This document shows positions 1,729 through 18,963 of a DNA stretch of 50,906 nt, one piece after another. A program made the translations under genes and the position numbers. Every line of letters begins with the position of its first letter. Positions within the stretch are counted from its first letter, which is position 1. Below the pieces are notes generated by a model. It saw only the letters and a program-made list of their open reading frames with translations, had not been told where the DNA came from and ran no database searches. Location: positions 1-50,906 of the forward strand of contig JAFVGK010000181.1 in the NCBI GenBank assembly GCA_017475035.1. Direction: 5' to 3'. The DNA comes from Blautia sp. (lineage in GTDB: Bacteria; Bacillota; Clostridia; Lachnospirales; Lachnospiraceae).

Positions 1729-3405
1729 ATGGCACGAGCTAAAAACAGAGGGTATCAGCAGACTTTGACCCCTACATATACTATCCGGCGCTGGCGTTTG
1801 GGCGAGTACATCCGCCTTTCCAAAGAGGATTTGAAAAAGGGCAAGGACGACAGCAACAGCGTGAAGAACCAGCGTGACCTGCTGGGGGACTTCTACCGGC
1901 GGCACATGGACGAATTTGAAAGCGCCGTTGAATATGTGGACGATGGGCACACCGGGACGGATGCCAACCGCGAAAACTTCCAGCGGCTCTTGGCCGATGT
2001 GATGAGCGGGAAAATCAACTGCGTGATTGTGAAAGACCTTTCCCGGTTCGCCCGGAATTACAGTGACGCGGGGAGTCTGATTGATAACCTGTTTGTGCAG
2101 ATGGGCGTCCGCTTTATCTCCCTTGCGGAGAACGTGGACAGCTACCTGAACCCCGACAGCGTTTCAAACATTATCGTTCCGATAACCAACGTGATGAACG
2201 ATAACTATTGCTACCAGACCTCAAAGAAAATCCGGCAGGTTTTTGATTACAAGCGGCGCAACGGCCAGTACATCGGCTCTTTCGCTCCCTATGGCTACAT
2301 CAAAGACCCAAAGGACAAGCACCAGCTTATTGTGGATGCGGATGCGGCTGAAATCGTCAAGCGCGTGTATTCCATGCTCCTGCAAGGCTCGTCTAAGAGG
2401 GCCATCGCCTTGTATCTGAACGAACACGGCATACCCAGTCCCACGGCCTACCGCCGGAAAAAGGGCCTGCCCGTTTCCTCGGCTGTGGCGGACGACCCCA
2501 TGTGGGGGGCCCGCATGATACATGAAATCCTCACCAACCCCATCTATACCGGGGATTTGGTACAGGGCCGCCGCCGGGTGAAAAGCTACAAGGTACACCA
2601 GATTGAGGCTGTGCCGGAGGAAGAATGGGTGCGCGTCCCCGATACCCACGAGGCCATCATCACCCACGAAACCTTTGACAAGGTGCAGGCCCTGCTGGTG
2701 CGCGATACCCGGACATCCCCCAAAGGGCGGGAGGTTCATCTGTTCAGCGGTTTTCTGAAATGCGCGGATTGCGGGAAATCCATTACCCGCAGCCAGAGCG
2801 GGAAAAATATCTATTACGCCTGCTCCACTTACAAGAACCGCTCCCGGACGGCCTGCTCCATGCACTCTATCAAGCACAACCGCTTGGAGGCCGCCGTTCT
2901 GTTCGCTATCCAGTATCAAGTGAACACCGCCGTTTCCTACTCGGAAATGATAACCAACATCAACTCGGCCCCGCTGAAAAAAAGTCAATCCCACCGCCTT
3001 AACGACCAGATAGCCGCAAAGGAAAAGGAATTGACCCGGATAACCCGCTACAAGCAGTCACTGTATCAAGATTGGAAAGACGGGGAAATCACCCAGCAGG
3101 AATACCGGGATATGAAAGCCGATTATGAACGGCAGGCCGCCGAGCTTGCGGATGTGCTGGCCCGGCTGAACGCAGAACGGGCGGAGCTCTTGAATGGCGT
3201 TGACAAGGAACACCCCGCGCTGGTAGCCTTTGCAAAGTATCAAAGCATCGAAACGCTCACCCGTGAAATCCTCACGGACTTGGTAGACCATATCAAGGTT
3301 TACGAAAACGGCAATATCAGCGTTCATTTCAAGTTCGCGGACGAGTTCCGCAAGATTGCCGAGTACATTGAAATCAACACCACCGATACCGCCGAGGCGG
3401 GCTGA
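1729..3405 (+). CDS. Large serine recombinase (TnpX-type site-specific integrase)
   Basis: A 558-residue large serine recombinase that catalyses integration and excision of the element through a covalent Ser-DNA intermediate. Domains in order: resolvase-type catalytic domain (residues about 25-170, nucleophile Ser31 in YIRLSKED, and the conserved VKDLSRFARNY), recombinase domain (about 190-310), zinc ribbon with Cys345, Cys348, Cys365 and Cys376, a coiled-coil region (about 420-490) and a C-terminal DUF4368-like segment. The length fits the TnpX/Tn4451 group. AAGGAGG precedes the ATG by 7 nt. All key residues are present, so the enzyme looks active. As the last gene of the element it should sit next to the attachment site, which agrees with the broken ABC-F gene just downstream. 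Confidence 0.95.
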   Translation: MARAKNRGYQQTLTPTYTIRRWRLGEYIRLSKEDLKKGKDDSNSVKNQRDLLGDFYRRHMDEFESAVEYVDDGHTGTDANRENFQRLLADVMSGKINCVIVKDLSRFARNYSDAGSLIDNLFVQMGVRFISLAENVDSYLNPDSVSNIIVPITNVMNDNYCYQTSKKIRQVFDYKRRNGQYIGSFAPYGYIKDPKDKHQLIVDADAAEIVKRVYSMLLQGSSKRAIALYLNEHGIPSPTAYRRKKGLPVSSAVADDPMWGARMIHEILTNPIYTGDLVQGRRRVKSYKVHQIEAVPEEEWVRVPDTHEAIITHETFDKVQALLVRDTRTSPKGREVHLFSGFLKCADCGKSITRSQSGKNIYYACSTYKNRSRTACSMHSIKHNRLEAAVLFAIQYQVNTAVSYSEMITNINSAPLKKSQSHRLNDQIAAKEKELTRITRYKQSLYQDWKDGEITQQEYRDMKADYERQAAELADVLARLNAERAELLNGVDKEHPALVAFAKYQSIETLTREILTDLVDHIKVYENGNISVHFKFADEFRKIAEYIEINTTDTAEAG

Positions 3406-3458: not shown

Positions 3459-3788
3459 TCATATGATAAGGAAACATACACCAAGGCCTTAACTTATATG
3501 GGGACTATGAAGTTTACTAGAGATGAAATGCACCATAAAATCTCAGAGTTGAGTGGAGGGCAGAGGGCTAAAATTATTTTTTTAGGAATGGTATTGCAAA
3601 ATGCAAATGTCCTTGTCCTCGATGAACCGACGAGGAATTTTTCTCCACTTTCAGCGCCTGTAATTAGAACAGCACTGTCTGAATTCAACGGAACAATTAT
3701 TAGTATTTCACATGACAGAATGTATTTGGACGAAGTTGCTGATGTAATATATGAATTATCAGATAATGACTTAAACACTGTATTTTAG
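3459..3788 (+). pseudogene. 3' remnant of an ABC-F ribosomal-protection ATPase gene
   Basis: An open frame from 3459 encodes the last ~109 residues of an ABC-F protein: the signature LSGGQ, Walker B LVLDEP, the DEPTRNFSPLS segment typical of the Lsa/Vga/CplR group, and the H-loop SISHDR. The N-terminal ABC domain, the linker and the second Walker A are missing, so it cannot bind ATP in the normal way. The first ATG (3498) has no ribosome-binding site. ABC-F proteins of this group dislodge lincosamide, streptogramin A and pleuromutilin antibiotics from the ribosome; this fragment should not. I infer that insertion of the serine-recombinase element cut the gene. Confidence 0.75.
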
Positions 3789-4102
3789 TTATGTTAACGT
3801 TGAATAGCTAAGTATCGTCCACTGCTTTCGCTTCGTAAACAGTAAACGATGAATAAAGTCGTGATTTGGGCCTCTTATTCAGTGGGCTGAGATAATGAAT
3901 TATGCTGAGAGATTATATCTCATACAAGTTCTTTGTAATCAGACATCGTGACAAGTTCAGTTTATTAAAAGCTTTTGTTCAATCGTGTATGGCAGATAGC
4001 ACAGCCACTTCGCATTTTTGCAGATGTAAAAAAGCGGACGTCTTCCATGGATAGTCTGGATAATACATTAAAGAGAAATAATTCCGAGAGGGGATGATAT
4101 TT
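3789..4102. other. Intergenic region between the ABC-F remnant and mod
   Basis: This AT-rich 314-bp stretch has no ORF with a ribosome-binding site and no recognisable terminator or RNA gene. A promoter for the type III operon should lie here, but no box pair close to consensus stands out. Confidence 0.4.
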
Positions 4103-5689
4103 ATGCCAACATTAGAATGGATTGGAAAGGATAAAGTGATCAATCATCACCAAGAAGTCCCCTTCCGGGTTTTAGAGAGAAAATATAGTTTTGATGAAAG
4201 TGGGAGGCATGAAGAGGACAACGGCAGTAGTAACATGATTATCCATGGGGATAATCTGGAAGCCCTGAAGGCTCTTCTGCCCCGCTATGAAGGCCAGATC
4301 AAGTGCATATACATCGATCCACCATACAATACTGGAAATGAAGGATGGGTCTACAATGACAACGTAAATGACCCGAGGATCCGAAAATGGCTGGGTGAAG
4401 TTGTCGGTAAGGAAGGTGAAGACCTGAGCAGACATGACAAGTGGTTATGCATGATGTATCCCAGATTAAGGCTGCTTTATAAACTGCTTTCTGATGATGG
4501 TGCTATTTTTATAAGCATAGATGATAACGAGCAGGCAAATCTCAAATTGATTTGCGATGAAATATTCGGATCTTCTCGTTTTATAGCACAGATTGTCTGG
4601 CAGAAAAGAACATCTCCAGATGCAAGAAAAAGAATGAGTAATGGACACGAATACATTCTCATTTATGTCAAGGATCCGGAGAATCTGGAACGCTGTATTA
4701 ACCTGATCGATTTGGATGAAACGGATGCAGGAAAATATAAAAATCCGGATAATGACCCCAGGGGGCCTTGGGTGTCTGTTGATTTTACTGCACAGGGGTT
4801 TCGACCGAATCAAATGTATGAGATAACTACGCCGAGCGGTCGAACAATCGGGCCGCCGGAAGGACGTTGCTGGAAGAATTTAAAAGAGGTATTTGAACAG
4901 TATTATTCTGAAGGCCGTTTATGGTTTGGAAGCGATGGAAATGGTGTTCCGAGGCAGAAAAACTATCTGTCAGAAAAAGAAGGAAAAACAGCATGGACAT
5001 GGTGGACTAATGAAGAAGTTGGTCATACTCAGGAAGCAACGCAGGAATTAGCAGCACTGTTACAAAGAAAGGCGTTTGATTACCCAAAGCCTGTCCGACT
5101 GATACAACGTATTATTCAGATGGCGACACATCCGGACTCCATAGTTTTAGATTCGTTTGCCGGATCAGGAACAACTGCGCATGCAGTATTAAAAATGAAT
5201 AGCGATGATGGTGGAAATCGCAAATTCATAGCTGTGGAAATGATGGATTATGCTGAAGACATTACTGCAGAACGCATCCGACGGGTCATTTCCGGTTATA
5301 GCAAAGGGAAAAAAGAAGTTGACGGAACCGGTGGAAGCTTCAGCTTCTATGAGCTAGGAGAGCCGCTGATGCTGGATGCGGAGTATCTGAATGAGAAGAT
5401 AGGCAAGGATAAGATCCGGGAATATGTCTGGTACACGGAGACGAGGCAGCCGTTGCCGGAAACAAGGCCGGAACACGGCTATCATTTGGGGACATTGAAC
5501 CACACGGCATACTATTTTTACTATGAGCCGGGTCAGATGACTGTTCTGGGATACGATTTCCTGTCCACAATCCGGGAGAAAGCAGAGAGCTATATTATCT
5601 ATGCAGATCGGTGTGCCTTGAGTGCTCCAGAACTTATGCGGTTTGGCATTACTTTCAAGAAGATCCCTCGGGATATCACAAAGCTGTAG
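4103..5689 (+). CDS. mod: Type III restriction-modification methyltransferase (Mod)
   Basis: A 528-residue DNA N6-adenine methyltransferase that recognises and modifies the target site of the type III system and, with Res, forms the restriction complex. Motif IV DPPY is at residues 72-75 and motif I (FAGSGTT) at 352-358. The order IV-TRD-I marks the beta class, so the region between about 160 and 330 holds the target-recognition domain. The ATG at 4103 is preferred over 4094 because GAGAGGGG abuts 4094 but lies 9-10 nt before 4103. res follows after 13 nt, so the two are co-transcribed. Recognition sequence cannot be predicted. Confidence 0.93.
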   Translation: MPTLEWIGKDKVINHHQEVPFRVLERKYSFDESGRHEEDNGSSNMIIHGDNLEALKALLPRYEGQIKCIYIDPPYNTGNEGWVYNDNVNDPRIRKWLGEVVGKEGEDLSRHDKWLCMMYPRLRLLYKLLSDDGAIFISIDDNEQANLKLICDEIFGSSRFIAQIVWQKRTSPDARKRMSNGHEYILIYVKDPENLERCINLIDLDETDAGKYKNPDNDPRGPWVSVDFTAQGFRPNQMYEITTPSGRTIGPPEGRCWKNLKEVFEQYYSEGRLWFGSDGNGVPRQKNYLSEKEGKTAWTWWTNEEVGHTQEATQELAALLQRKAFDYPKPVRLIQRIIQMATHPDSIVLDSFAGSGTTAHAVLKMNSDDGGNRKFIAVEMMDYAEDITAERIRRVISGYSKGKKEVDGTGGSFSFYELGEPLMLDAEYLNEKIGKDKIREYVWYTETRQPLPETRPEHGYHLGTLNHTAYYFYYEPGQMTVLGYDFLSTIREKAESYIIYADRCALSAPELMRFGITFKKIPRDITKL

Positions 5690-5702
5690 GGAGGCGGGTG
5701 AG

Positions 5703-8384
5703 ATGGAATTAAAGAATTATCAAAAGAATGTGATCTCCGATTTGACCCGTTATCTGGAGCTGTTGAACGAAACCGGGAATATTGGGACGGCCTATCGGAA
5801 GCTATGGGAAGAAAAGAACGTGCCGGTGGGGTTCGGAGGGGTTCCTGCATACCAGAACATTCTTCCCGGTGTCCCGGATCTTTGTTTCAAAGTGCCGACC
5901 GGCGGTGGGAAGACGTTTCTGGCCTGCAATGCGATCAAGCCCGTATTTGTCGCCCTTCCCCAGACAAAGATAAGGGCAGTCGTTTGGTTGGTTCCTTCTG
6001 ACGCTATCTTGGAACAGACGCTTGCAGCGCTCCGGAATCCAGCTCACCCCTATCGCCAGAAGCTGGATACGGATTTTGGCGGACGCGTGGAAATCTATAC
6101 GAAGCAGGAGCTTCTTGCCGGACAGAACTTCAACATCACTTCTGTTACGGAACAGCTTTCGGTTATGGTACTTTCCTACGATTCCTTCCGCGGTAGAAAG
6201 GAAGCACTGAAGGCACGCCAAGAGAACAGTTCTCTTGCACCTATGTCAAAAGCACTGGGCACTCCTGCATATCCTATTGAGGAAGCAGATGAAACCGCCC
6301 TCCTACAGGTGATCAATCAGCTTTCCCCGCTGGTCATTGTGGACGAAAGTCACCATGCCAGAAGCACGCTCAGCCGTAAGATGTTAAAAGATTTTAATCC
6401 GTGTTTTGTCCTTGACTTGACGGCGACGCCTACAAAGGAGAGCAATATCATTTCATTTGTGGATGCTGTCCAGCTAAAGAGGGAAAACATGGTCAAGCTG
6501 CCGGTGGTCGTTTACAACCGTTCTTCCCAGCAGGAAGTCGTGGCAGATGCGATTGATCTTCGGAATCATCTGGAGCAGCAGGCAATCACAGAAGAAAAAA
6601 ATGGCGGTTCTTATATTCGCCCGATCGTGCTCTTCCAGGCACAACCCAAGGGAAAGGAAGACAGCACAACTTTTGAAAAGCTTCGCGGAAAACTGGTGGA
6701 AGCCGGTATTCCGGCAGAGGAAATCGCGATCAAGACGGCGGATGTCAATGAATTGAAGGGTATAGATTTACTTGACCGAGGTTGCAGGATCCGGTACATC
6801 ATCACGGTAAATGCGCTGAAAGAAGGATGGGACTGCCCGTTCGCTTATATTCTTGCATCCCTTGCAAATAAGACCAGTCAGGTAGATGTGGAACAGATAC
6901 TGGGCAGGATCCTGCGTCAGCCGCATACCAGGAGAATGGGACAGGCAGCTCTGAACATGTCTTATGTGCTGACATCTTCCAGGGATTTCAAAGAAACGCT
7001 GGACGGGATCGTTCGCGGCCTGAACAGTGCCGGGTTCTCCGGTAAAGACTGCCGGGTGGCTGTGGAAGAAGACAAATCAACATATCAGTATCCTGAATAT
7101 CGTCAGGCATCTTTTCTTCGGGAAGAGCCGTCAGATTTTGGTGATTCCAAAGAACAGGAAGCCTCACCTGAGATAGAACAGGAGGAGTTTCTTGACTTTG
7201 ATGCGAGGCTGCTTTCGCAAACGCTTGAAGCGAGAGAGCAATCATCAGAAGAAAGTACGACGGAAGGGAAAGAAACACATGGCGGTACTGCTTCTGTAAT
7301 GATTGCTGTCGCAGAAAAGGAAGGAGCGTCTTTTGAGGCTGCTATGCAGCAAAACGAAATGAATAGCGGCATCAGTGATATCCCAGTGGAGATACAGGAT
7401 AAGATGACGTATTTCCATATCAATCCGGAATTCAAACAGGAAGCAAAAAGTTTGATTCTTCCGCAGTTCTTTATGAAAGTGCCAAACAGCATTTTCGCTG
7501 ACGGATATACAGTTCTGCTCCAGAAGGAGCATTTGGCCGAAGGGTTTACACTGAAAGGCAAGGGCTATGATATTGACTTTGACCGGGCTGATGATGAAAT
7601 TGTCAAGGTGGATATCAGCGATAAAGAGGGGAGCACACCGAAAGTCTTTAAGATGTCGGAAACGGACCAAAGATATTTTAAGGAACAGTTTTCCAGGTTT
7701 TCACCGGAACAGAAGGTGCGTACCTGCAAAGATATTATACACAGGTCCCTTACCAGGATGGATATGATCGATGACGGCGAACTTCGCAACTATATTGACC
7801 GCATTGTGGATGATATGGACAGGGAAACGTTAGCCGCATTAGAACAGGCACCTCAGGGATTTGCATACCGGATTAGAAAGTATGTGGAGGCCCTGTTGGA
7901 TGCGCATTACCTGAAAACATTCCTGAACTGGATTGAAATCGAACGTATCATTGTAGAGCCGTATTATAAGTTGCCGGATGCAATTGGGCCGCTCCGGACC
8001 ACAAACACGTTTGGGAAGAGCCTTTATCAGGCAGAGGAAGAAGTCAATGGTTTTGAGTATGACATGGTAATGGCTCTTACGGCCATGCCTAACGTCCGCT
8101 GGTGGCACAGGAATATCTCCCGCCAGGGATTCTGTATCAATGGCTTCGTGAAGCACTATCCAGACTTTATTGTGGAGACACAAAGCGGGAAAACGATCCT
8201 GATCGAGACGAAGGGAGATCATCTGGAGAATACCGAGACAAAATATAAACTGGAGCTTGGACGGGCATGGCAAAATATGGCCGGCAGTAGCTTCCGATAT
8301 TATATGGTTTTCCAGAGTAAAGACTTGAACTTGAACGGAGCAATACAGTTCGATAAGTTCTGTGAGCTCATGAAAAATCTATAA
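5703..8384 (+). CDS. res: Type III restriction endonuclease subunit (Res)
   Basis: An 893-residue ATP-dependent helicase-nuclease that, with Mod, cleaves DNA carrying unmodified sites in head-to-head orientation. It has Walker A PTGGGKT at residues 65-71, motif II DESH at 214-217, late helicase motifs including NALKEGWDCP and QILGRILRQP, and a C-terminal PD-(D/E)xK nuclease with PD at 820-821 and ExK at 835-837. Length and order are complete for the family. The start at 5703 has GGGAGG 8 nt upstream; the same frame is open further left but inside mod. No frameshift is seen, so the system is probably functional. Confidence 0.93.
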   Translation: MELKNYQKNVISDLTRYLELLNETGNIGTAYRKLWEEKNVPVGFGGVPAYQNILPGVPDLCFKVPTGGGKTFLACNAIKPVFVALPQTKIRAVVWLVPSDAILEQTLAALRNPAHPYRQKLDTDFGGRVEIYTKQELLAGQNFNITSVTEQLSVMVLSYDSFRGRKEALKARQENSSLAPMSKALGTPAYPIEEADETALLQVINQLSPLVIVDESHHARSTLSRKMLKDFNPCFVLDLTATPTKESNIISFVDAVQLKRENMVKLPVVVYNRSSQQEVVADAIDLRNHLEQQAITEEKNGGSYIRPIVLFQAQPKGKEDSTTFEKLRGKLVEAGIPAEEIAIKTADVNELKGIDLLDRGCRIRYIITVNALKEGWDCPFAYILASLANKTSQVDVEQILGRILRQPHTRRMGQAALNMSYVLTSSRDFKETLDGIVRGLNSAGFSGKDCRVAVEEDKSTYQYPEYRQASFLREEPSDFGDSKEQEASPEIEQEEFLDFDARLLSQTLEAREQSSEESTTEGKETHGGTASVMIAVAEKEGASFEAAMQQNEMNSGISDIPVEIQDKMTYFHINPEFKQEAKSLILPQFFMKVPNSIFADGYTVLLQKEHLAEGFTLKGKGYDIDFDRADDEIVKVDISDKEGSTPKVFKMSETDQRYFKEQFSRFSPEQKVRTCKDIIHRSLTRMDMIDDGELRNYIDRIVDDMDRETLAALEQAPQGFAYRIRKYVEALLDAHYLKTFLNWIEIERIIVEPYYKLPDAIGPLRTTNTFGKSLYQAEEEVNGFEYDMVMALTAMPNVRWWHRNISRQGFCINGFVKHYPDFIVETQSGKTILIETKGDHLENTETKYKLELGRAWQNMAGSSFRYYMVFQSKDLNLNGAIQFDKFCELMKNL

Positions 8385-8391
8385 GTGCTGA

Positions 8392-8425
8392 CCCAATAAA
8401 TGGCCCAATAAATGACTCAATAAAA
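8392..8425. repeat. 12-bp tandem repeat behind res
   Basis: Two copies of CCCAATAAATGG/A followed by the degenerate CTCAATAAAACT. It lies just past the res stop codon. A 6-bp hairpin (GAAATC-TCCG-GATTTC) follows near 8465; neither has a T run. Confidence 0.45.
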
Positions 8426-8577
8426 CTGACTAAACGGGAAAACCGACTGTTACAGCATCTAAGGAAATCTCCGGATTTCACTAGGGAAGTCCATGCTGAA
8501 AAGCCTGGTTGGATCGCAAAGGGAAACAGGGGTCCGGGTATGGAGTGAGGAATAGAATAAGCAAAAGGAGCAGGATC

Positions 8578-10023
8578 ATGATAAGCATAAATGACGGACG
8601 ATACATAGGCGTGGATGGCTGCAGAGGTGGCTGGATCGCCTGTATTCTGAATTACGGAGAGTTTCTCCTGGAACGATTCGATTCTTTGGAGGCATTGGTT
8701 GATCATTATCCCGAATTCGATGCATTTCTGATCGATATGGTCATTGGCCTTCGAAGCAGAGTTGATCAGATCCGCCCCGATGACCTTGCACGAAAGGAAC
8801 TGGAGTCCCGTTCTTCAACGATTTTTCCGGTACCATGCCGTCAGGCGGTTTATGCCGCTTCGGAGGAAGAACAGAAACAGGAAAACATACGGGTGCTTGG
8901 AAAAAGTCTGGCGAAACAGTCGATCAATATTATTCCAAAGATCCGTGAACTGGACGAATTTTTGATTCATCACCCGGAGTACAGGAACAGAATCCTGGAA
9001 AGCCATCCGGAACTAGGCTTTGCCAGACTGCATGGCCATGTGTTAATGACCCGCAAGAAGGAATTTCCCGGGTTTATGGAAAGAGTGAACATCCTGGGAA
9101 AATACTTTCCGGGCAAACCATTGACCGGATTATGGGAGAAGGCCAGAGAGTTCAAGTGCAATCCGGATGACCTGGTGGACGCTGTCTGCCTTGCTGTAAC
9201 GGCATCTCTGGCAGCACATAGCCTGTGTGAATCGATCCCGGAGGAGCCGGAACAGGACGAAACGGGCCTTTACATGAAGCTGACAGTCCCGAAGAAGAAC
9301 GTCGGTGCACCTGCAGATGGGAAAAAGGTGGCTGTTGTGACCGGCGGTGCGAACGGAATAGGGAAATGTATAGCTGAAGAATTCCGGAAGCAGGGAGTCA
9401 GAGTATATGTGATCGACAAGGCCGATGGAGACCACTATGTCGGAGATACCTCCGATAAAGCCGTTCTCGAGACATTTGCCGGAGAAGTGATCTGTGAGAG
9501 CGGCGGCATTGACTATCTGATCAACAATGCGCTGCCGCTGATGAAGGGCATCGACGAATGCAGCTATGAGGATTTCCAATATGCGTTTTCCGTCGGAGTT
9601 ACCGCACCCTTCTACCTGTCCAAGCTCTTTGCGCCTTATTTCCGGGAGGGAGCGTGCATCATCAATATTTCTTCCTCCCGTGACCGCATGAGCCAGCCGC
9701 AGACGGAAAGCTACACGGCAGCCAAGGGCGGTATCGCGGCACTGACGCATGCACTGGCGGCAAGTTTTTCCGGGAAGGTGCGAGTAAATTCTATCTCTCC
9801 GGGATGGATTGATACATCTTACCGCGTATATGAAGGGCCGGATGCACTGCAGCAGCCCGCCGGCCGCGTCGGAAATCCGATGGATATTGCCAATATGGTA
9901 CTCTTCCTTTGCTCGGACAAGGCAGGATTTATTACCGGTGAAAACATCTGTATCGATGGAGGTATGACAAAGCTGATGATCTATCATGATGATCACGGCT
10001 GGACTTATACACCTGAAAAATAA
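8578..10023 (+). CDS. DUF429 (RNase H-like) domain fused to a short-chain dehydrogenase
   Basis: A 481-residue two-domain protein. Residues about 8-230 match DUF429, a predicted RNase H-fold nuclease: GVDGCRGGW at the start, IDMVIGL, a PKIRELDEF segment, ESHPELGF, and a late DDLVDAVCLAV acidic helix. Residues about 249-481 are a classical NAD(P)-dependent SDR with TGGANGIG at 255-262, NNA, catalytic Ser365-367 and Tyr379-xxx-Lys383. Both halves look catalytically intact and are read through without a break. GGAG precedes the ATG by about 8 nt. The gene lies 193 bp behind res on the same strand and 40 bp before the next gene. A role in nucleotide or nucleic-acid modification tied to the restriction locus is an inference; no substrate can be named. 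Confidence 0.85.
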   Translation: MISINDGRYIGVDGCRGGWIACILNYGEFLLERFDSLEALVDHYPEFDAFLIDMVIGLRSRVDQIRPDDLARKELESRSSTIFPVPCRQAVYAASEEEQKQENIRVLGKSLAKQSINIIPKIRELDEFLIHHPEYRNRILESHPELGFARLHGHVLMTRKKEFPGFMERVNILGKYFPGKPLTGLWEKAREFKCNPDDLVDAVCLAVTASLAAHSLCESIPEEPEQDETGLYMKLTVPKKNVGAPADGKKVAVVTGGANGIGKCIAEEFRKQGVRVYVIDKADGDHYVGDTSDKAVLETFAGEVICESGGIDYLINNALPLMKGIDECSYEDFQYAFSVGVTAPFYLSKLFAPYFREGACIINISSSRDRMSQPQTESYTAAKGGIAALTHALAASFSGKVRVNSISPGWIDTSYRVYEGPDALQQPAGRVGNPMDIANMVLFLCSDKAGFITGENICIDGGMTKLMIYHDDHGWTYTPEK

Positions 10024-10063
10024 TCCGCAGGCTTTCGGTAAAACTGCTGACGGAGAGGATCAT

Positions 10064-10708
10064 ATGATTGATAGAAATACGCAGGTAAAAATAGAGTTCA
10101 GCGGCACCATACGTTCTGTCCAGCCGCGTTCCAATGTATGGCGCTACCGGCTGGATAACCGTACCCATAGTATGACAGGATACAATCTTTTCCTGTCCGG
10201 AACGGCAGAAGGCGCAGAAAAAGATTTCGCGGTTGCCATCTCTGAGAAGCAAATGATGAAATTTCATTTTCACATCGGAGACGAGATCGGGGGAACAGCC
10301 TGGACAAAGATGTATCCGAAACTGGAATATGCGGATTATTACCGCGTCGGTGGCTTGAAGAAGATTATAACTGCGCCGGATCCTGACGAGGATGCTCATG
10401 AGCCCTGGGTTGGAGAAGTGCCGGAACTGTCCGTCTATGACTGGCGGGGCTGCCGTATGCTGGACAGCCGTTCCTGGAAGGGAAAGTGCTTCACCTGCAA
10501 ATGGGCTTGTATGGCAAACGTAGCGATCGAATACAACTGGGGCATTACCCAGAAATTCCGTTTCGAGAGCTTCTGCTATGGACCGAAGAACTGTAAGCGG
10601 TACAAGATGGGAAAACCGAGGGCAGTTCCATACAAGGACTGCGGATCGGTTTACGATGAAGGCTGGTTGGATGACATCTGCACCGAGAATCGTGATGATG
10701 AAGAGTAA
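10064..10708 (+). CDS. Cysteine-rich protein of unknown function, possible OB-fold
   Basis: A 214-residue protein with no family I can name. The first ~115 residues alternate short strands (TIRSVQPRSNVWRYR, GYNLFLSG, HIGDEIGGTAWTK) in a way that suggests an OB-like beta barrel. The last 86 residues hold eight cysteines (130, 142, 145, 149, 171, 177, 193, 206), including C-x2-C-x3-C, which would suit zinc or an iron-sulphur cluster. The start at 10064 follows GAGAGGATC by a short spacer. It is 40 bp behind the DUF429-SDR gene and followed by a terminator, so the two likely form one unit. Confidence 0.7.
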   Translation: MIDRNTQVKIEFSGTIRSVQPRSNVWRYRLDNRTHSMTGYNLFLSGTAEGAEKDFAVAISEKQMMKFHFHIGDEIGGTAWTKMYPKLEYADYYRVGGLKKIITAPDPDEDAHEPWVGEVPELSVYDWRGCRMLDSRSWKGKCFTCKWACMANVAIEYNWGITQKFRFESFCYGPKNCKRYKMGKPRAVPYKDCGSVYDEGWLDDICTENRDDEE

Positions 10709-11158
10709 TAGTAAGAGGTAATGCTTGGGGATCTGACTCCGGAATGGTGGATTGGATAGATGCCTAAACCAAAAGTCGGATGATAATTTCAAAAAACTGT
10801 ATATTAATGATGATGGAGATGCCATCTGCAACAGGTCGATTCCTGAGGCAGATGGCATTTTTGCTGCCATACAATGGGTGTTAGCCGGGGATGTTGAAAT
10901 AGCGATCCTGTTATACAGGTAGACTGCTTCATAACCGGTTCACTATATTTGCCCAACGACAATTTTTTATGGCGTAGAACAACACTGCTTACGTTGGGCA
11001 AGGCTTCTCCTGATTCCGGGCAGATGGTCTGCGCCGGGAAAGGAGAATCTGAAATGGTCATGATCAGAACACATGCCAAAGGTTGCACGCCCCTAACTGC
11101 TAATTTTTTTATGAGACATACCTTTGCAAGGGAACTGTTACCTTGCTGCTTTATGGAG
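10709..11158. other. Intergenic region with terminator and inverted repeat
   Basis: Besides the terminator at 10819, this stretch holds an 8-bp inverted repeat GCCCAACG/CGTTGGGC (10951-10958 and 10992-10999). Open frames here lack ribosome-binding sites and conserved features, so I do not call a gene. Confidence 0.4.
10819..10863 (+). terminator. Terminator behind the cysteine-rich gene
   Basis: Perfect 11-bp stem ATGCCATCTGC / GCAGATGGCAT (10819-10829, 10848-10858) followed by TTTTTG. Confidence 0.8.
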
Positions 11159-11206
11159 TCCTTCCGATGGATTTTCTATAATAAAGATGAAGAAATGTCG
11201 GAAGGA
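11159..11206 (+). promoter_or_regulatory. Inverted repeat around the promoter and SD of the first XRE gene
   Basis: TCCTTCCGA (11159-11167) and TCGGAAGGA (11198-11206) form a perfect 9-bp inverted repeat. A TATAAT box (11177-11182) lies between the arms and the right arm overlaps the ribosome-binding site. It could be an operator for the XRE protein, or a hairpin hiding the SD in read-through transcripts. Confidence 0.5.
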
Positions 11207-11217
11207 GGTGGCGCCCG

Positions 11218-11586
11218 GTGAAACCCAGTTTTACAGAAGAAGAAAGAAAACAGATCGGCCGCCGCATCCGTGATTCAAGGAATGCCAAAAAGTATACGCT
11301 GGAGGATTTAGCTGAAAAGTGTGACTGCTCTTCTAAACATATCGGGGATGTGGAAAGAGGCACCGTCAGTGCTTCCTGGCCGTTGGCAGTAAAGATCGGA
11401 AAGGCATTGAATACAGGCGTAGACTACTATCTTGCTGATACCTCCGACCAGTATTTCGATATCCAGATTGATGTGGAGATCTCCAATATCCTGAAGGAAT
11501 GTGACATGGAGACCCGAATGTTGATACGTGACACCGCCAGAAGAATTGCGGAGTACGGGAAGAGGATCCAGACGAGAAAGGACTAA
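11218..11586 (+). CDS. XRE-family transcriptional regulator
   Basis: A 122-residue DNA-binding protein. An HTH_3 domain spans about residues 10-68 (IGRRIRDSRNAKKYTLEDLAEKCDCSSKHIGDVERG), followed by a helical tail probably for dimerisation. The start is GTG 11218, 9 nt after AAGGAGG. It resembles small repressors of clostridial mobile elements. The inverted repeat over its promoter suggests autoregulation. It stands between the restriction/DUF429-SDR block and a GAF-SARP regulator, so it could control either. Confidence 0.85.
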   Translation: MKPSFTEEERKQIGRRIRDSRNAKKYTLEDLAEKCDCSSKHIGDVERGTVSASWPLAVKIGKALNTGVDYYLADTSDQYFDIQIDVEISNILKECDMETRMLIRDTARRIAEYGKRIQTRKD

Positions 11587-11644
11587 GCTGATAGTAGTTG
11601 CCAATGTAAACACTTGGCAGCCACAAATACAATACGAAGGATGT

Positions 11645-11688
11645 CCGCAGGGCTGCCGGGTTACGACAAGGCAATCCTGCGGTTTTTT
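11645..11688 (+). terminator. Terminator behind the XRE gene
   Basis: CCGCAGG (11645-11651) pairs with CCTGCGG (11676-11682), followed by six T. Confidence 0.65.
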
Positions 11689-11733
11689 ATATACCCTGGA
11701 ATCTGTCGAAGTATACTGAAATGAGGTGATGGT

Positions 11734-13134
11734 ATGTTGGAAAAGATCTTTTCGTTAGGAAGGTCAAGGGAAAAACAGTCCGACGACACCACCGGTAAAT
11801 ACCGCACGATCTCGGAGGAAGAATATCAGCGGTATGTGTTTGAGGACGAGCTTTTCAAAATCATTGTGGAAACGGAAGCAGCCCTGCATAACATCGAAGA
11901 TCCCATGGAGATTGCGGTTGGTGTTATGAAGGCAGCCTGCAAATTCTATGGTGCTGACTGGTGCGGCATTCTGATAGCGGATCTCCGTTCGCAATTATGG
12001 CGTCCCGAGATGTGGTACGATGTGGAAGCCGGCCCTATGAAGGAAACCCTGTTTCATGAGTTTGAGATGACCGATGAGTTCGTCACATGGGCAGAGCACC
12101 TGGTTAGTCAGAAGCCTATGATCATCCCAGATACAGAGGCTATACGGGAAACCCATCCGAAGGAATATGAAGCATATCAAAGACTCCAGACCAGGGCGGT
12201 GATCGGCGTTCCCTTTGGACAGCATCCCCTGGGTTACATGGTCGTAAGGAATCCGATCCGCAATATTTCCCAACCTGAACCTCTTCAGCTGGCATGTTTC
12301 GTAGCTATGATGATGGTGCTGCAGAAGCGCCGGCTGGAAGCGGAGCGCCGTTATATTTCAGATGACACGCCGGATGACGGGAGGCTGAGGATACGCTATA
12401 ACACCCTCGGCCAGCACAGCATGGAAATCAATGGAAGACGCATCCGTGAGCAGGATCTGGCGCATCCTAACCGGCGTGGATGGGTGATCCTGTTATATCT
12501 GATCCTTCATAAAACACCGGTTGATCAGCTGAGCATGGCCGCAGATCTGTGGCCGGATGAGCCGGAGAAATCAGCGCGGTCAAACATCCGTCAGGCGATC
12601 TATCGCCTGCACAGTGATCTGGCCGTATATCACGACGCCAAGGTCATCGATGTGAAGTCTGGGATGCTTGAACTGCTGGATGACGTCCATATCGTTACAG
12701 ATGCGGAAGAGATGGAAAGCCTGTACCTGAAGGCAAAATCCACGGCGAATCCGGACGAGAAAGCGGAGACGCTTAAGAAGGCCTTTGAACTGTACCAGGG
12801 ACGCCTGTTTGAACTGGGAGAACTGGATATGGGCTCCTGGCTGATCCCTTATACGACACATTACAATCAGGTATTCATTGACATTGCGAGAGAACTTCTG
12901 ACCATGCTTGGGCACAGCAGGGATTATCACAGGATCATCGAGTATGCTTCCCGTGCCTTAAGCCTTGAACCGGGAATACAGGATGCCTATTACTGGATCT
13001 CGATTGCTGCCGAAGCAACCGGAAACAGCATAATGAAAGAACGCTACGATCAGATGGCCAGGGATGAACTGGCGGAGGAGGAATATCAGAAAGTACAGAA
13101 TCTGCTCGCGCTGCGAACACATATAAAAGAATAG
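11734..13134 (+). CDS. GAF-domain SARP-type transcriptional regulator
   Basis: A 466-residue regulator. Residues about 30-200 read as a GAF-like sensor (FYGADWCGILIADL ... AVIGVPFG). Residues about 220-315 form an OmpR-type winged helix as in SARP proteins (MEINGRRI ... LWPDEPEKSARSNIRQAIYRLH). Residues about 320-465 form a BTAD-type TPR domain. Such proteins activate target operons when the sensor binds a ligand or senses stress. The start has GAGGTGAT upstream. The target is unknown; the nearby defence genes and the TGTCACAG cluster just downstream are candidates. Confidence 0.75.
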   Translation: MLEKIFSLGRSREKQSDDTTGKYRTISEEEYQRYVFEDELFKIIVETEAALHNIEDPMEIAVGVMKAACKFYGADWCGILIADLRSQLWRPEMWYDVEAGPMKETLFHEFEMTDEFVTWAEHLVSQKPMIIPDTEAIRETHPKEYEAYQRLQTRAVIGVPFGQHPLGYMVVRNPIRNISQPEPLQLACFVAMMMVLQKRRLEAERRYISDDTPDDGRLRIRYNTLGQHSMEINGRRIREQDLAHPNRRGWVILLYLILHKTPVDQLSMAADLWPDEPEKSARSNIRQAIYRLHSDLAVYHDAKVIDVKSGMLELLDDVHIVTDAEEMESLYLKAKSTANPDEKAETLKKAFELYQGRLFELGELDMGSWLIPYTTHYNQVFIDIARELLTMLGHSRDYHRIIEYASRALSLEPGIQDAYYWISIAAEATGNSIMKERYDQMARDELAEEEYQKVQNLLALRTHIKE

Positions 13135-13148
13135 TGAGGGACGTAATA

Positions 13149-13194
13149 GGGGGCTGTCGGCAGTGGTTTAACCGCTGCGGCAGGCCCTTTCTTT
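13149..13194 (+). terminator. Terminator behind the GAF-SARP gene
   Basis: A long imperfect stem with GGTT/AACC at the loop and GGGGC/GCCCT at the base, then TTTCTTT. Two internal mismatches lower confidence. Confidence 0.5.
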
Positions 13195-13245
13195 GCGTTT
13201 ACAGTTTTTTGTGTGAAATACTGGTAATAAACTGAAAAAGAGTCC

Positions 13246-13359
13246 TGTCACAGGATTGTCACAGCCGTGTAACTGCGGTGTCACAGCGCGAAAAAAGATT
13301 TTGAAGATAATTTCAATGTAACAGGATTGTCACAGGCCCTGTAGCAAGCCCTGTCACAG
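13246..13359. repeat. Cluster of five TGTCACAG repeats
   Basis: TGTCACAG occurs at 13246, 13257, 13279, 13328 and 13352, all in the same orientation. The longer unit ACAGGATTGTCACAG is repeated exactly at 13250 and 13321. CTGTCACAG is itself nearly palindromic. The cluster lies in a gene-free stretch between two regulator genes and looks like iterons or a multi-site operator. Confidence 0.7.
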
Positions 13360-13448
13360 CCGCCCATTAGAGTGTGCGATGCAAAAACAACAGACAGCAT
13401 TGTATACGAAACGGACGGGTGACAGAAATTGGAACAGGCTAACCAAAC

Positions 13449-13501
13449 AGAGGCGGTTGTTTTTGCAGGAAACTGCGGAAGCGGCCGCCTCTTATTTTTT
13501 T
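13449..13501 (+). terminator. Strong terminator upstream of the second XRE gene
   Basis: AGAGGCGG (13449-13456) pairs with CCGCCTCT (13485-13492), with an inner TGCAG/CTGCG hairpin, followed by TATTTTTTT. It insulates the XRE gene from the repeat cluster, or ends an RNA made from it. Confidence 0.7.
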
Positions 13502-13553
13502 GCGCGGAAAACCGGGCAGCGGCAAAGGCCTTTTCGGGCTGCAGATGCCGATC

Positions 13554-13603
13554 TCCTCCGGTTCTGAGATTTGACCAATCAACAAATTTCAGAAATCGGA
13601 GGA
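13554..13603 (+). promoter_or_regulatory. Imperfect inverted repeat covering the SD of the second XRE gene
   Basis: TCCTCCG (13554-13560) and CGGAGGA (13597-13603) bound an imperfect repeat of about 20 bp per arm, with GATTTG/CAAATT near the loop. The right arm contains the ribosome-binding site. This repeats the arrangement at the first XRE gene. Confidence 0.5.
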
Positions 13604-13610
13604 AAGAATC

Positions 13611-13916
13611 ATGTTTGATATGAAAGCATGCGGAGCCAGGATCAAGGAACTCCGCAAGAAGAATAATGAAACGCAGGAAACCATGGCCTCCAATCTTTAC
13701 ATTTCCCAGGATCATCTCCGGAAGATCGAATCCGGAAAGAGCGGCGCCTCGATCGACCTGCTGATCGATATTTCCACATACTTTGGAGTAACCCTTGACT
13801 ATCTGATCCGGGGAAAACGTGAAGTGACCGATGCCGAGGAACGTATTCTCGCAAAGCGGAAAAAGGAGCTCCGGGACATTGCCCAGGATCTGTTTGTCAT
13901 GTCCGCGAGACTCTGA
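13611..13916 (+). CDS. XRE-family transcriptional regulator
   Basis: A 101-residue repressor-like protein. The HTH_3 domain covers about residues 8-65 (IKELRKKNNETQETMASNL ... HLRKIESGKSG), followed by a basic helical tail with AKRKKELRD. CGGAGGA lies 7 nt before the ATG. It stands alone on its transcript, downstream of a strong terminator, and likely controls the ParB-like/DUF6551 module that follows or the element's own maintenance. Confidence 0.85.
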   Translation: MFDMKACGARIKELRKKNNETQETMASNLYISQDHLRKIESGKSGASIDLLIDISTYFGVTLDYLIRGKREVTDAEERILAKRKKELRDIAQDLFVMSARL

Positions 13917-14095
13917 CAGGGCCTAAGAGGCCCGGTTAACCGTGCCTCCCGGGCTCTAACGAAGAATGGCTTTTCTTATTACACTGACTTCAGAGCAGCG
14001 AAGTTGCTGCCATGCGCACTTTGACAACTGAATATACATTTCATCAGGCACATTCTGATTCTTGATTTCCCCAGAGAGCCTAAGAGGGGTTCGCC
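13917..14095. other. Leader region, no gene seen
   Basis: Short self-complementary stretches are present (GGGCCTAAGAGGCCC at 13920-13934 and CGGTTAACCG), but no T run. It opens a 530-bp leader in front of the ParB-like gene. Confidence 0.3.
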
Positions 14096-14233
14096 ATGAT
14101 CGAACGGATACTGCAGCACTTTTTTATGACGGCAGGAATTCATCGGGAGCGGTACAAACCTACTGCAAATGCCGGGACTGCACCCGGCGGCGGCCATGAC
14201 CTGGGGAAGGGGATAATGATACTTCCGTCTTAG
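14096..14233 (+). CDS. Possible small protein in the ParB-like leader
   Basis: A 45-codon frame starts at ATG 14096 with GAGGGG 6 nt upstream. The product begins MIERILQHFFMTAG and ends in a glycine-rich, low-complexity tail. I recognise no family. The good ribosome-binding site is the only support; it may be a leader peptide rather than a functional protein. Confidence 0.35.
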   Translation: MIERILQHFFMTAGIHRERYKPTANAGTAPGGGHDLGKGIMILPS

Positions 14234-14270
14234 GGCGGCTCGGCGAGAACCGCGGAGGGGTGAGACTCCC

Positions 14271-14372
14271 ATGAGCGCAGGCAAGCAGGCCTGCCGCCTG
14301 GTGTATTTCCCATCGGACATTTTGTCCGGTTCTCCGGGGTGTCGTGGACAAATAGGAGGACGAGCATATTGA
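14271..14372 (+). CDS. Possible second leader peptide
   Basis: A 33-codon frame begins at ATG 14271, 11 nt after GAGGGG. Its stop overlaps a TTG (14369) that has its own AGGAGGA and opens a 12-codon frame. This chain of coupled mini-ORFs ends within a GGCAGGCC/GGCCTGCC hairpin. A translational leader is plausible but unproven. Confidence 0.25.
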   Translation: MSAGKQACRLVYFPSDILSGSPGCRGQIGGRAY

Positions 14373-14380
14373 AGATGAAT

Positions 14381-14429
14381 GGCAGGCCAGCTGTGCGGTC
14401 AGTATAGATTGCGGCAGCGGCCTGCCTTT
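14381..14429 (+). promoter_or_regulatory. Hairpin just before the ParB-like gene
   Basis: GGCAGGCC (14381-14388) pairs with GGCCTGCC (14419-14426), followed by TTTA. It ends a few bases before the ribosome-binding site at 14434 and could act as an attenuator. Confidence 0.4.
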
Positions 14430-14445
14430 ACACAGGAGGAACAAG

Positions 14446-15525
14446 ATGGATTTGAAGATTGATCCGGAATTTGCCGGAAAGATTCCTCCCCTCACAGACG
14501 AGGAATACCGGCAGCTGGAAGAAAACATTCTGGCAGATGGCCGGGTGATCAACCCGCTGATCGTCTGGAATGGCGTAATCGTGGACGGTCATAACCGCTA
14601 CCGGATCGTGCAGGCACACCCGGAGGTCCCGTATGACACATTTGAGAAAGATTTTCCAGACCGGTTCGCCGTGATCGCCTGGATCTGCAGGAACCAGCTG
14701 GGACGGCGGAACCTTACGCCCGAGCAGCGGAAATACCTGATTGGGAAGCAGTACGAGGCAGAGAAAGCCTCTGTGCCGAATGCAGCTGGTAAAAATCAGT
14801 TTTCTGAAGAGGTTAGTGGACAAAATGACCACCAACCTACTTCTGAAAAGACAAGCGAGAAAATTGCCAGGGAGATAGGCACAAGCGAGCGCTTTGTCCG
14901 CCGCGCAGAGGAATTTGCCCGTGGCGTGGACGCTGCCGAGGAGGCGGTTCCCGGCATGAAGCAGGAAATCCTCTCCGGCAAGCTGAAGGGAACAGACCAG
15001 GCCATCCGGGCGATTGGAAAAGCCGAGCCGGAGCGGCGTGAAGAGCTGACCAGAAAATTACAGCACCCCTCTCCCACTCCGGAAGCTCAAGGGCGGCGGC
15101 AGGAACAGTCGGATTTAGATGCGGATGGGTGCGTTGGCAGCACAAATGTCGGGGCAGACGATGCGGATGGGCATGGTGCCGGCACAAATGCCGGGTTAAA
15201 TGATGTGGATGACAGTCTGCGGGAAGTGGATGATGGTGACTCCCCTGCTGGTGCAGCCCGCCGCACAAAGGCCGAGGAGCTGCAGGCTATACAGGAGATA
15301 TCCGACAACATGCTTACCTCGGATGGGCGGGGTACTGCGGAGGACATGCTATATGAACTGCGGGACGCGCTGGAAACGCTGATTGACCGCTGGGATCTCT
15401 GTTTGAACACTTACGAAGATATTTACCGGAAAAAGAAATACCGCCGGCAGGTGAAGGCACTTGCCGAAGAAGGGGTTACATACCTGAATAAAATACGGAG
15501 GGAGTCAGACCATGAAAACGGATGA
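14446..15525 (+). CDS. ParB/sulfiredoxin-fold domain protein
   Basis: A 359-residue protein. The N-terminal ParB-like fold (about residues 15-100) contains the motif DGHNRYRI, which in this family replaces the GERR box of true ParB. An HTH-like region (about 135-165) follows. The middle (about 205-275) is an acidic, low-complexity linker with repeated GTNAG/ADDADG units. A helical C-terminus of about 75 residues completes it. The short gene overlap with the DUF6551 gene indicates one operon. ParB-fold proteins can bind DNA, hydrolyse CTP or cut DNA; there is no ParA partner here, so partition is unlikely. Confidence 0.75.
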   Translation: MDLKIDPEFAGKIPPLTDEEYRQLEENILADGRVINPLIVWNGVIVDGHNRYRIVQAHPEVPYDTFEKDFPDRFAVIAWICRNQLGRRNLTPEQRKYLIGKQYEAEKASVPNAAGKNQFSEEVSGQNDHQPTSEKTSEKIAREIGTSERFVRRAEEFARGVDAAEEAVPGMKQEILSGKLKGTDQAIRAIGKAEPERREELTRKLQHPSPTPEAQGRRQEQSDLDADGCVGSTNVGADDADGHGAGTNAGLNDVDDSLREVDDGDSPAGAARRTKAEELQAIQEISDNMLTSDGRGTAEDMLYELRDALETLIDRWDLCLNTYEDIYRKKKYRRQVKALAEEGVTYLNKIRRESDHENG

Positions 15526-16294: not shown

Positions 16295-16309
16295 CGGAGG
16301 CAGACACGC

Positions 16310-16958: not shown

Positions 16959-16967
16959 GGATTTGTC

Positions 16968-17004
16968 AAGGATGTCGTTGTGGCTGGCGACATCCTTAAT
17001 TTTT
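16968..17004 (+). terminator. Terminator behind the HTH gene
   Basis: Perfect 10-bp stem AAGGATGTCG / CGACATCCTT (16968-16977, 16988-16997), followed by AATTTTT. Confidence 0.8.
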
Positions 17005-17068
17005 GGACTGGAGTTCGATACGATGACAGCAGGCAAAAGCCAATATCACAGAAAGGAAGGTTGTGGAC

Positions 17069-17317
17069 ATGAGTGAAAAGAAGGAAGCAACGAGCATGTC
17101 TGTCCAGCAGATGGGCCAACTGCTTGGGCTTGGTAAAACCTGCACTTACTGGCTGATTAAAAAGAAGCTGTTTAAGGTGGTTATGGTCGGCGGCAAGATG
17201 CGGATCATGAAGGACAGCTTTGAGGAATGGTACCAAAGCCAGTCACATTACAAGAAGGTACCGCCGGAAGAGGCCAGGAAATGGCCGGAAAGGAGTCGAA
17301 ATGGCATCCATTGTTAA
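17069..17317 (+). CDS. xis: Excisionase-like DNA-binding protein
   Basis: An 82-residue HTH protein (MSVQQMGQLLGLGKTCTYWL ... VGGKMRIMKDSFEEWY), a second copy of the same fold as the gene before it. ATG 17069 is preferred over GTG 17063 because AAGGAAGG then lies 8 nt upstream. Its end overlaps the start of the integrase gene by 17 bp, the usual xis-int coupling in integrative elements. It probably sets the direction of recombination towards excision. Confidence 0.8.
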   Translation: MSEKKEATSMSVQQMGQLLGLGKTCTYWLIKKKLFKVVMVGGKMRIMKDSFEEWYQSQSHYKKVPPEEARKWPERSRNGIHC

Positions 17318-18710
17318 GCGGAAGAAAAAGTATTCCGTCGTCTATTCTTATACCGATGAAAAGGGAAAGAAGCACCAGAAATGGGAGACCTTTGATAACA
17401 ATGCGGACGCAAAGAAGCGCAAAGCGGAGATCGAATGCGAACAGGAAAACGGAACATTTGTGATTCCTACGGCAAAGACCGTGAATGACCTGTTAGATGA
17501 ATATTTTGCCATTTATGGCGTAAATAATTGGGCAATGTCTACATACGAATCGCGGCGCAGCCTCATGAGCAACTATGTGAGGCCGCTGATTGGGGAAATG
17601 CAGCTCTCCGCGCTGAATACACGGGTGATGGATCAGTTCTATAAGAGCCTGCAGAAGGTAAAGCCGGTTATCGTGAATAATGTGCAGCCAAAGAATGAAT
17701 TTCTGACGGCACACACAATCCGTGAGATCCATAAGATCCTGCGCACAGCTTTCAATCAGGCCGTGAAATGGGAACTGATGCCGAAAAACCCGGTTGCCAA
17801 TGCTACACTTCCGAAGGAAGAGCATGTCCCTAGAAACATCTGGACGGCAGATATTCTTTTCAAGGCGCTGGATGCTTGTGATGATGATATGCTTCGTTTG
17901 GCATTGAATCTGGCGTTTTCCTGTTCCCTTCGTATGGGCGAAATGTTGGCACTGACCTGGGATTGCGTGGATATCGAGAAAGAAAGCATTGCTGCCGGCC
18001 GGGCCAATATCTATATAGATAAGGAACTGCAGAGGGTTAATCGGGATGCCATGAATACGCTGGATGAACGCGGCGTTGTCCTGAAGTTTCCTCCTGCCTT
18101 TGCGAGTACCCATACCCGCCTTGTTCTGAAAGAGCCAAAGACCAAAACGAGTATCCGTAGAGTTTTTCTTCCGAAAACAGTGGCGGAAATGCTGGTGGAG
18201 AGGAAGAAAGAAGTGGAAGAACTGAAAGACCTTTTCGGCGACGAGTTCCTCGATTTCAATCTCGTATTCTGCAGCGCAAACGGCAGGCCAGTCGAAAGCC
18301 AGATCATTAACAGAGCCTTTAATAAGCTGATCCGGGAGAACGGGTTTCCAAAGGTGGTCTTCCACTCCATCCGTCATACCAGCATTACTTACAAGCTGAA
18401 GCTGAATGGCGGCGATATGAAATCCGTACAGGGAGACTCCGGTCATGCACAGCTGAAGATGGTGGCGGATGTGTATTCCCATATCATCGACGATGACAGG
18501 CGGCTTAATGCACAGAGGTTTGAAGAGACCTTCTATTCCGGTAAGGGCTCCGGGAATGAAGCAAACGAAACTGGCGGGCAGGTTCAGGCAGCGGAAGCGC
18601 GGGCAGCGGAAGCGGCGCAGAAACAGGAAACCGATCAGGAAGCGTTGATCCGCATCCTGCAGAATCCGGAGATGGCAGCACTCCTGAAAACGCTGGCACA
18701 GAGTTTATGA
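17301..18710 (+). CDS. int: Tyrosine recombinase / integrase
   Basis: A 469-residue site-specific recombinase. An AP2-like arm-binding N-terminus (about 1-60) is followed by a SAM-like core-binding domain (about 65-180) and a catalytic domain with Arg211, His355-x-x-Arg358, His382 and nucleophile Tyr392. All are present. The C-terminal 60 residues are an Ala/Glu-rich extension (QAAEARAAEAAQK) unusual for the family. Start ATG 17301 follows GGAG. The target is presumably the tRNA-Arg gene whose 3' fragment lies at 20922. A terminator follows. Confidence 0.93.
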   Translation: MASIVKRKKKYSVVYSYTDEKGKKHQKWETFDNNADAKKRKAEIECEQENGTFVIPTAKTVNDLLDEYFAIYGVNNWAMSTYESRRSLMSNYVRPLIGEMQLSALNTRVMDQFYKSLQKVKPVIVNNVQPKNEFLTAHTIREIHKILRTAFNQAVKWELMPKNPVANATLPKEEHVPRNIWTADILFKALDACDDDMLRLALNLAFSCSLRMGEMLALTWDCVDIEKESIAAGRANIYIDKELQRVNRDAMNTLDERGVVLKFPPAFASTHTRLVLKEPKTKTSIRRVFLPKTVAEMLVERKKEVEELKDLFGDEFLDFNLVFCSANGRPVESQIINRAFNKLIRENGFPKVVFHSIRHTSITYKLKLNGGDMKSVQGDSGHAQLKMVADVYSHIIDDDRRLNAQRFEETFYSGKGSGNEANETGGQVQAAEARAAEAAQKQETDQEALIRILQNPEMAALLKTLAQSL

Positions 18711-18930: not shown

Positions 18931-18963
18931 AAGAATGAGAAATTATGAAAGGAGGTGTTGAGA

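Follow-up and report, generated by a model that had tools for sequence, protein, structure and literature searches.

A DUF429-SDR fusion protein of Blautia sp., a conserved architecture with a possible bifunctional role

Described DUF429 proteins and the locus of the fusion

DUF429 has been assigned to the RNase H-like superfamily in PMC3985635. Where this paper deals with the domain, its members are mostly single-domain proteins, with NUDIX and RelA/SpoT as partners, and the relevant passages of PMC3153485 name NUDIX and phosphomethylpyrimidine kinase. Another described composite is RelZ (MS_RHII-RSD, MSMEG_5849) of Mycobacterium smegmatis. Its RNase HII activity is attributed to DUF429 in the excerpted text of PMC4429107, and according to excerpts of PMC7591505, RelZ makes alarmones besides cleaving R-loops and RNA-DNA hybrids, the isolated domains being without function. 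We analysed a protein of Blautia sp. in which DUF429 is joined to an SDR. Judged by the published descriptions of RelZ, as far as these excerpts go, both proteins possess an N-terminal DUF429-type, presumably RNase H-like domain and a second enzyme, but the partner is a (p)ppGpp synthetase in RelZ and an SDR in the fusion. Passages of the literature naming DUF429 or PF04250 disclosed no SDR partner. To that extent, the fusion is novel in its partner, while the joining of DUF429 to a second enzyme is already known.

The fusion gene resides on a stretch of 50,906 nucleotides, the whole of which is called the window in the following (Table 1). As the sequence-only reading had stated, it lies behind mod and res; the type III pair is located directly upstream, res ending 193 bases short of the fusion gene. 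Since a serine recombinase and a tyrosine integrase flank the locus and since PemK (16310-16732), an IrrE-like and DUF4411 pair (18955-20645) and a RepA_N gene are found beyond, we regard the surroundings as an accessory, probably mobile region. The same reading had called it an island full of toxin-like genes, a claim that we rated only fair, the PemK gene and the IrrE-like/DUF4411 pair speaking for it. Beside the serine recombinase lies a 96-aa ORF (3498-3785) whose similarity to an ABC ATPase domain is confined to the domain end and which is probably a gene remnant. In all loci, neighbouring genes outside the profile scans were named by eye.

Table 1. Positions of the fusion gene, its domains and neighbouring features (window coordinates unless a locus is given)
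Feature	Position	Strand	Basis
DUF429-SDR fusion protein, 481 aa	8578..10023	+	ORF, Pfam, orthologues
DUF429 (RNase H-like) domain	8608..9252	+	Pfam, alignment
Tail of the DUF429 domain with a short linker to the SDR, residues 226-247	9253..9318	+	comparison with relatives
Classical SDR domain	9319..10020	+	Pfam, motifs, PDB sequence match 3ged
Cysteine-rich protein, 214 aa	10064..10708	+	ORF, profile searches, family comparison
Predicted OB-like barrel, residues 1-110 of the cysteine-rich protein	10064..10393	+	structure model, structure search
CxxC...CxxxxxC stretch (C142/C145/C171/C177)	10487..10594	+	family alignment
Strong hairpin with T run at the 3' end, terminator-like	10815..10862	+	folding energy
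mod, type III DNA methyltransferase	4094..5689	+	Pfam, PADLOC
res, type III restriction subunit, ORF start a GTG inside mod	5622..8384	+	Pfam, PADLOC
Large serine recombinase, mobile-element context	1729..3405	+	Pfam
Tyrosine integrase, mobile-element context	17220..18710	+	Pfam
G584 fusion gene	L156:9733-11175
G572 fusion gene	L157:10116-11558

The fusion protein, its orthologues and its relatives

DUF429 and a complete SDR had been read as parts of a single unbroken protein, which was confirmed by the frame, by Pfam matches and by gapless orthologues. PF04250 matched residues 11-225 at E 7.5e-52, its score of 176.6 bits lying far above the cut-off (23), while residues 258-464 were matched by adh_short_C2 (E 1.5e-43) and residues 250-416 by adh_short (E 4.1e-30). 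The five Pfam matches of the protein comprised DUF429 and SDR-type domains only; NUDIX and a RelA/SpoT synthetase were absent from them. In the tail region, the fusion shares LYMxLTVP with two NUDIX-DUF429 proteins of the same genome, which terminate within a few residues of this motif. The SDR half contains TGGANGIG, D280, NNA, S366, Y379 and K383, and hence the TGxxxGxG, NNA and Ser-Tyr-Lys elements of classical SDRs; its nearest PDB sequence match was 3ged (E 3.5e-51). Among 21 aligned SDRs, three of them fused, TGG..GIG, NNA, S366, Y379, K383 and D280 were invariant or nearly so. An aspartate expected at the end of strand 2 of an SDR, here D280, points to a preference for NAD(H).

The DUF429 alignment covered 17 of 21 loci, four being left out as divergent, truncated or not clearly read. 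D13, D53, E141 and D201 were identical in all 17 domains and D198 in 16; these acidic residues presumably represent RNase H-like active-site positions. With the DUF429 half, a PDB sequence search up to E 1 gave no match, and the structure of the fusion predicted from the single sequence had a mean pLDDT of 33.8. Shine-Dalgarno-like sequences (AAGGAG, GGAGAGG) were read by eye before the ATGs of the fusion gene and of the cysteine-rich gene following it.

The orthologues encoded by two genomes of another genus, G584 and G572, likewise comprise 481 aa and align along their full length without gaps at 81% identity, the junction being in frame and in register with that of the window. The fusion gene of G584 is overlapped at its end by a short frame (L156:11141-11425) that matches the C-terminal end of a methyladenine glycosylase. 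A contig of the MAG RUG13128 (L063) is 99.96% identical to window positions 4507-18705 over 14,199 bp and therefore does not count as independent evidence. It departs from the window inside mod (about 2445 of L063, window 4507), and beyond this point its mod frame runs into a different upstream protein, due either to a rearrangement or to a chimeric join in one of the assemblies. This departure, together with the 200 contigs and the estimated contamination of 5.03% of the window genome, might suggest that the fusion arose by misassembly or by an accident of the frame. Because the orthologues of G584 and G572 contain the same in-frame junction, we rejected this explanation, to which we ascribe a negligible chance. 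The DUF429-SDR fusion is a real, conserved architecture whose domains are joined end to end.

Among the relatives retrieved, fusions accounted for 1 of 145 at a threshold of 1e-60, 1 of 394 in a further search, 3 of 392 in the search of the order, 1 of 391 in that of the class and 1 of 265 in that of the family (threshold 1e-70). The genus of G572 gave 2 of 6. Some genomes turned up in more than one search, and wherever a single fusion was obtained, it was that of the window's own genome. From the further search and those of the order and the class, 21 distinct DUF429 loci were compiled, which comprise three DUF429-SDR, eight NUDIX-DUF429 and four HD-like-DUF429 loci and six others; among the latter are single-domain and divergent proteins, truncated ones, some interrupted by a contig end and some that could not be read clearly. 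NUDIX was assigned by PF00293 in one locus (L043) and by the NUDIX-box pattern in eight relatives. NUDIX-DUF429 proteins resemble the fusion in having two domains and a DUF429 of the same clade, but their NUDIX domain is N-terminal, whereas the SDR of the fusion is C-terminal. The other close DUF429 relatives of the window's own genome are of this type (59% and 58%, contigs C147 and C37), and so is a protein of G171 with 65% over the DUF429 part. The gene on C147 (L053:7919-9052) lies on the opposite strand inside a cluster that by eye resembles type IV secretion genes of an ICE. In the HD-like-DUF429 proteins of G328, G845, G928 and G955 (L052:5914-7185, L165, L166 and L167), DUF429 is likewise joined to an enzyme-like domain, which unlike the SDR is N-terminal and resembles phage dNMP phosphatases. 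That of G328, the only member scanned, gave no Pfam match and matched phage deoxynucleotide phosphatase families (phrog_318, E 1.9e-39).

Some relatives showed further peculiarities. In G328, an AriA/OLD-like gene and a type II restriction-modification pair immediately precede the HD-like-DUF429 gene. Genes for WYL-type regulators (L050:2211-3197, L172:4014-5003, L173:8675-9604) were found near NUDIX- or HD-like-DUF429 genes, and in L173 a truncated DUF429 by eye seems to be joined to a WYL-like remnant. At L159:3901-5234, two facing HsdS-like half genes and an integrase-like gene lie beside a NUDIX-DUF429 gene, an arrangement suggestive of an invertible specificity locus.

Trees of both halves were rooted at midpoint only. 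In the SDR tree (21 SDRs, without the partial or broken L021 and L024 and without loci first found in the family search), the three fused domains formed one clade (support 100/98) among standalone SDRs. Closest to them, with a less supported placement (81/92), were standalone SDRs from the same genus and one from a plasmid of Ruminococcus albus. Standalone SDRs are of the same subfamily and have the same catalytic residues as the fused domain, but are devoid of DUF429. One of them, encoded by the conjugative plasmid pRUMAL02 of R. albus 7 (L195), is 83.5% identical to the fused SDR, which indicates that an SDR of this type can travel on mobile DNA. In the window's own genome, a piece 82% identical to the second half of the fusion ends at a contig edge. 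The DUF429 tree (17 domains, without L151, L152, L153 and L168) united the fused domains with three NUDIX-DUF429 proteins in one clade (100/98), and the grouping of the three fused halves on their own was weak (60/40). From these sequences, the fusion enzyme appears to be of single origin, as shown on the SDR side; the most parsimonious history would be a single event in which NUDIX was lost and an SDR gained.

Between the window and G584/G572, dN was 0.17-0.175 and dS about 2 in the DUF429 half, and dN about 0.05 and dS over 3 in the SDR half, the resulting ratios being rough since dS is saturated. Both halves look constrained between the genera. In the comparison of G584 with G572, the SDR half disclosed 21 synonymous and 2 nonsynonymous changes, the DUF429 half 1 synonymous and 4 nonsynonymous ones, which are too few to judge, yet give no sign of constraint. 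The uneven distribution of synonymous changes hints at recombination within the fusion gene.

Neighbouring genes of the fusion and the cysteine-rich family

All three distinct fusion loci harbor known defence genes within 5 kb, each locus having a different set. In the window these are mod and res, which match the PADLOC models of a type III methyltransferase and restriction subunit. In G584, type I subunits for specificity and restriction occur together with AbiL-like genes and a PifA-like ATPase, and a CBASS-type cyclase is accompanied by a NucC-like effector, whereas G572 has JetABC of Wadjet. The loci of G584 and G572 share a 3.7-kb block (peroxiredoxin, YaaA, fusion) with 96% identity and therefore represent one genomic site, which leaves about two independent placements of the fusion. 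G596, a genome of the same genus, contains peroxiredoxin and yaaA without the fusion. Defence or candidate defence genes were detected at 3 of the 15 other DUF429 loci (NUDIX 2/8, HD-like 1/4, others 0/3), a lower bound as 38 neighbours were chosen by eye and scanned singly. These were an LmuA-like gene and PDC-S53 in L048, type II restriction-modification genes and AriA in L052, and the HsdS halves in L159. An RT match in L054 was taken as a group II intron and left out, and neither the WYL matches in L050 and L172 nor a partial pAgo-type match in L173 (E 1.4e-21) were counted.

For a broader tally, we took all 119 eligible ORFs (220-1400 aa) in the vicinity of 18 DUF429 loci and, as controls, 119 of the 182 ORFs eligible in 16 other stretches of these genomes, the contig being arbitrary for several genomes. 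At E 1e-20, 93 PADLOC families were matched near DUF429 and 10 among the controls, families not being equal to proteins since one protein matches many overlapping models. The control matches were mostly read as housekeeping cross-hits (e.g., DinG, SspA, DndA). JetC (1468 aa) and a 1588-aa ORF in L048 fell outside the tally because of the size range. The fusion protein itself matched no family of PADLOC-DB 2.0.0 at E 1e-5, and among the literature titles listed none named an SDR-based anti-phage system. We consider the defence context of the fusion suggestive only, and a role in virus defence deduced from location is doubtful.

On the same strand, 40 bases behind the fusion gene (10024-10063), starts the gene for a 214-aa protein with eight cysteines (C130, C142, C145, C149, C171, C177, C193, C206), just as the sequence-only reading had described it. 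Starting from an alternative in-frame ATG at 9986, the product would comprise 240 aa. Only four of them were nearly invariant, C142 and C145 being conserved in 68 and C171 and C177 in all of 69 aligned family members, and these four residues form a probable metal site. The possible OB fold proposed earlier was borne out by the predicted model (mean pLDDT 90.8), which has a five-stranded barrel whose strands 3 and 4 are separated by a helix. The top structural matches of the model are presumably OB domains; Foldseek gave no match under E 0.001, and this structure search hardly probed the C-terminal part. Profile searches yielded no Pfam match over the cut-off (a weak one below it, T2SSC, E 0.025), no NCBIfam or PHROG match and no PADLOC-DB 2.0.0 model at E 1e-5. 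A terminator had also been suggested behind the gene. A strong hairpin (Table 1) indeed exists, with -32.8 kcal/mol over 10800-10880 (z -4.9), but it was not among the terminators reported by the consensus scan.

A virus- or plasmid-borne origin was rejected. The cysteine-rich protein had no phage or plasmid match at E 0.01 and none in viral contigs. The DUF429 half had one weak record in phages (31.5%), 14 in plasmids, 12 of which were haloarchaeal by name and all of which had less than 60% identity, and no relative in viral_contigs.

The two genes had been proposed to form a defence module. Such a pair would be compatible with the 40-bp spacing on one strand, with the common terminator-like hairpin and with the 52 PADLOC families matched among 119 neighbour proteins of the cysteine-rich family, which were sampled from 210 and stand without a control from their own genomes. 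The listed matches near family members included Qat, ThsA, DndB and type I methyltransferase models; Fic-like and similar matches are not defence-specific. However, 79 of 80 loci of the cysteine-rich family (L063-L142) lack the fusion, the remaining one being the near-identical RUG13128 copy, neither G584 nor G572 has the cysteine-rich gene next to its fusion, and neither protein matches a PADLOC model. The commonest neighbour cluster of the family was shared by at most 8 of the 80 loci, so that a recurrent partner was not apparent; neighbours may have been missed, too, since the mechanical ORF picking recovered the cysteine-rich gene itself in only 73 loci. We therefore abandoned the two-gene module, whose probability we rate as very low, and by its distribution the cysteine-rich gene looks like a neighbour unrelated to the fusion. 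Thus, of the earlier proposal of a defence module the link to the cysteine-rich gene was lost, and the defence genes close to every fusion remained. Fusion homologues without a linked partner, named beforehand as an outcome speaking against it, do occur in G584 and G572, yet they have defence genes nearby.

Possible function of the fusion

Domain content, retention of the motif residues, constraint between the genera and location led us to favor, with a probability of roughly 0.55, a bifunctional accessory enzyme in which an RNase H-like nuclease is tied to an NAD(H) oxidoreductase in a RelZ-like manner. As has been reported for RelZ, the DUF429 half would work as a metal-dependent nuclease of the RNase H type that attacks the RNA of RNA:DNA hybrids, and the SDR half, by virtue of D280 and of what is generally known about SDRs, would act as an NAD(H)-dependent oxidoreductase. 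By analogy to RelZ, the two activities may be coupled in cis, and the nuclease may be tuned by the state of the cofactor or substrate at the SDR. The enzyme would likely serve stress response or genome maintenance and be carried as cargo.

It is also conceivable, albeit unlikely, that the fusion alone is an anti-phage gene whose SDR senses NAD(H) or a metabolite altered by phage and switches on the DUF429 nuclease. The defence genes within 5 kb at all three distinct loci and the PADLOC tally (93 against 10 families) agree with this idea, but the loci of G584 and G572 amount to one site, only 3 of 15 other DUF429 loci have defence genes (at least), no PADLOC model matches the protein, and non-defence genes are plentiful on mobile elements. 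A single-gene defence in this specific form, in which the NAD(H)-binding SDR gates the nuclease and a shift of NAD redox state or metabolites caused by phage releases RNA:DNA hybrid cleavage, is quite improbable. The NAD-linked defence logic invoked by the sequence-only reading found no direct backing, as the SDR has its catalytic residues intact and is a redox domain, other Pfam domains were not matched and no PADLOC model matched either the fusion or the cysteine-rich protein. Finally, the SDR might do all of the physiological work with DUF429 as a passenger that serves folding or oligomerisation. The SDR half is the more conserved one (dN 0.05 against 0.17), synonymous and nonsynonymous changes between G584 and G572 number 21:2 in this half and 1:4 in DUF429, and standalone relatives of the SDR are frequent, seven loci of which look metabolic or mixed by eye. 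Retention of the invariant acidic residues and a dN far below dS in DUF429 between the genera argue against a mere passenger, and we give this possibility little credit.

The cysteine-rich family is separate from the fusion, unannotated, large and widely scattered, and deserves a name. DUF429 emerges as a little-studied RNase H-like domain which has repeatedly recombined with enzymes of nucleotide chemistry, and the fusion adds a redox enzyme, a type of partner not encountered in the consulted parts of the DUF429 literature. If the gating reading were true, DUF429 composites with NUDIX, HD-like, RelA/SpoT or SDR partners would make up a wider set in which a nuclease is linked with nucleotide or redox chemistry, and the fusion would be one of its branches. 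With the fusion, it becomes possible to test directly whether a nuclease and a cofactor-using enzyme are coupled in cis.
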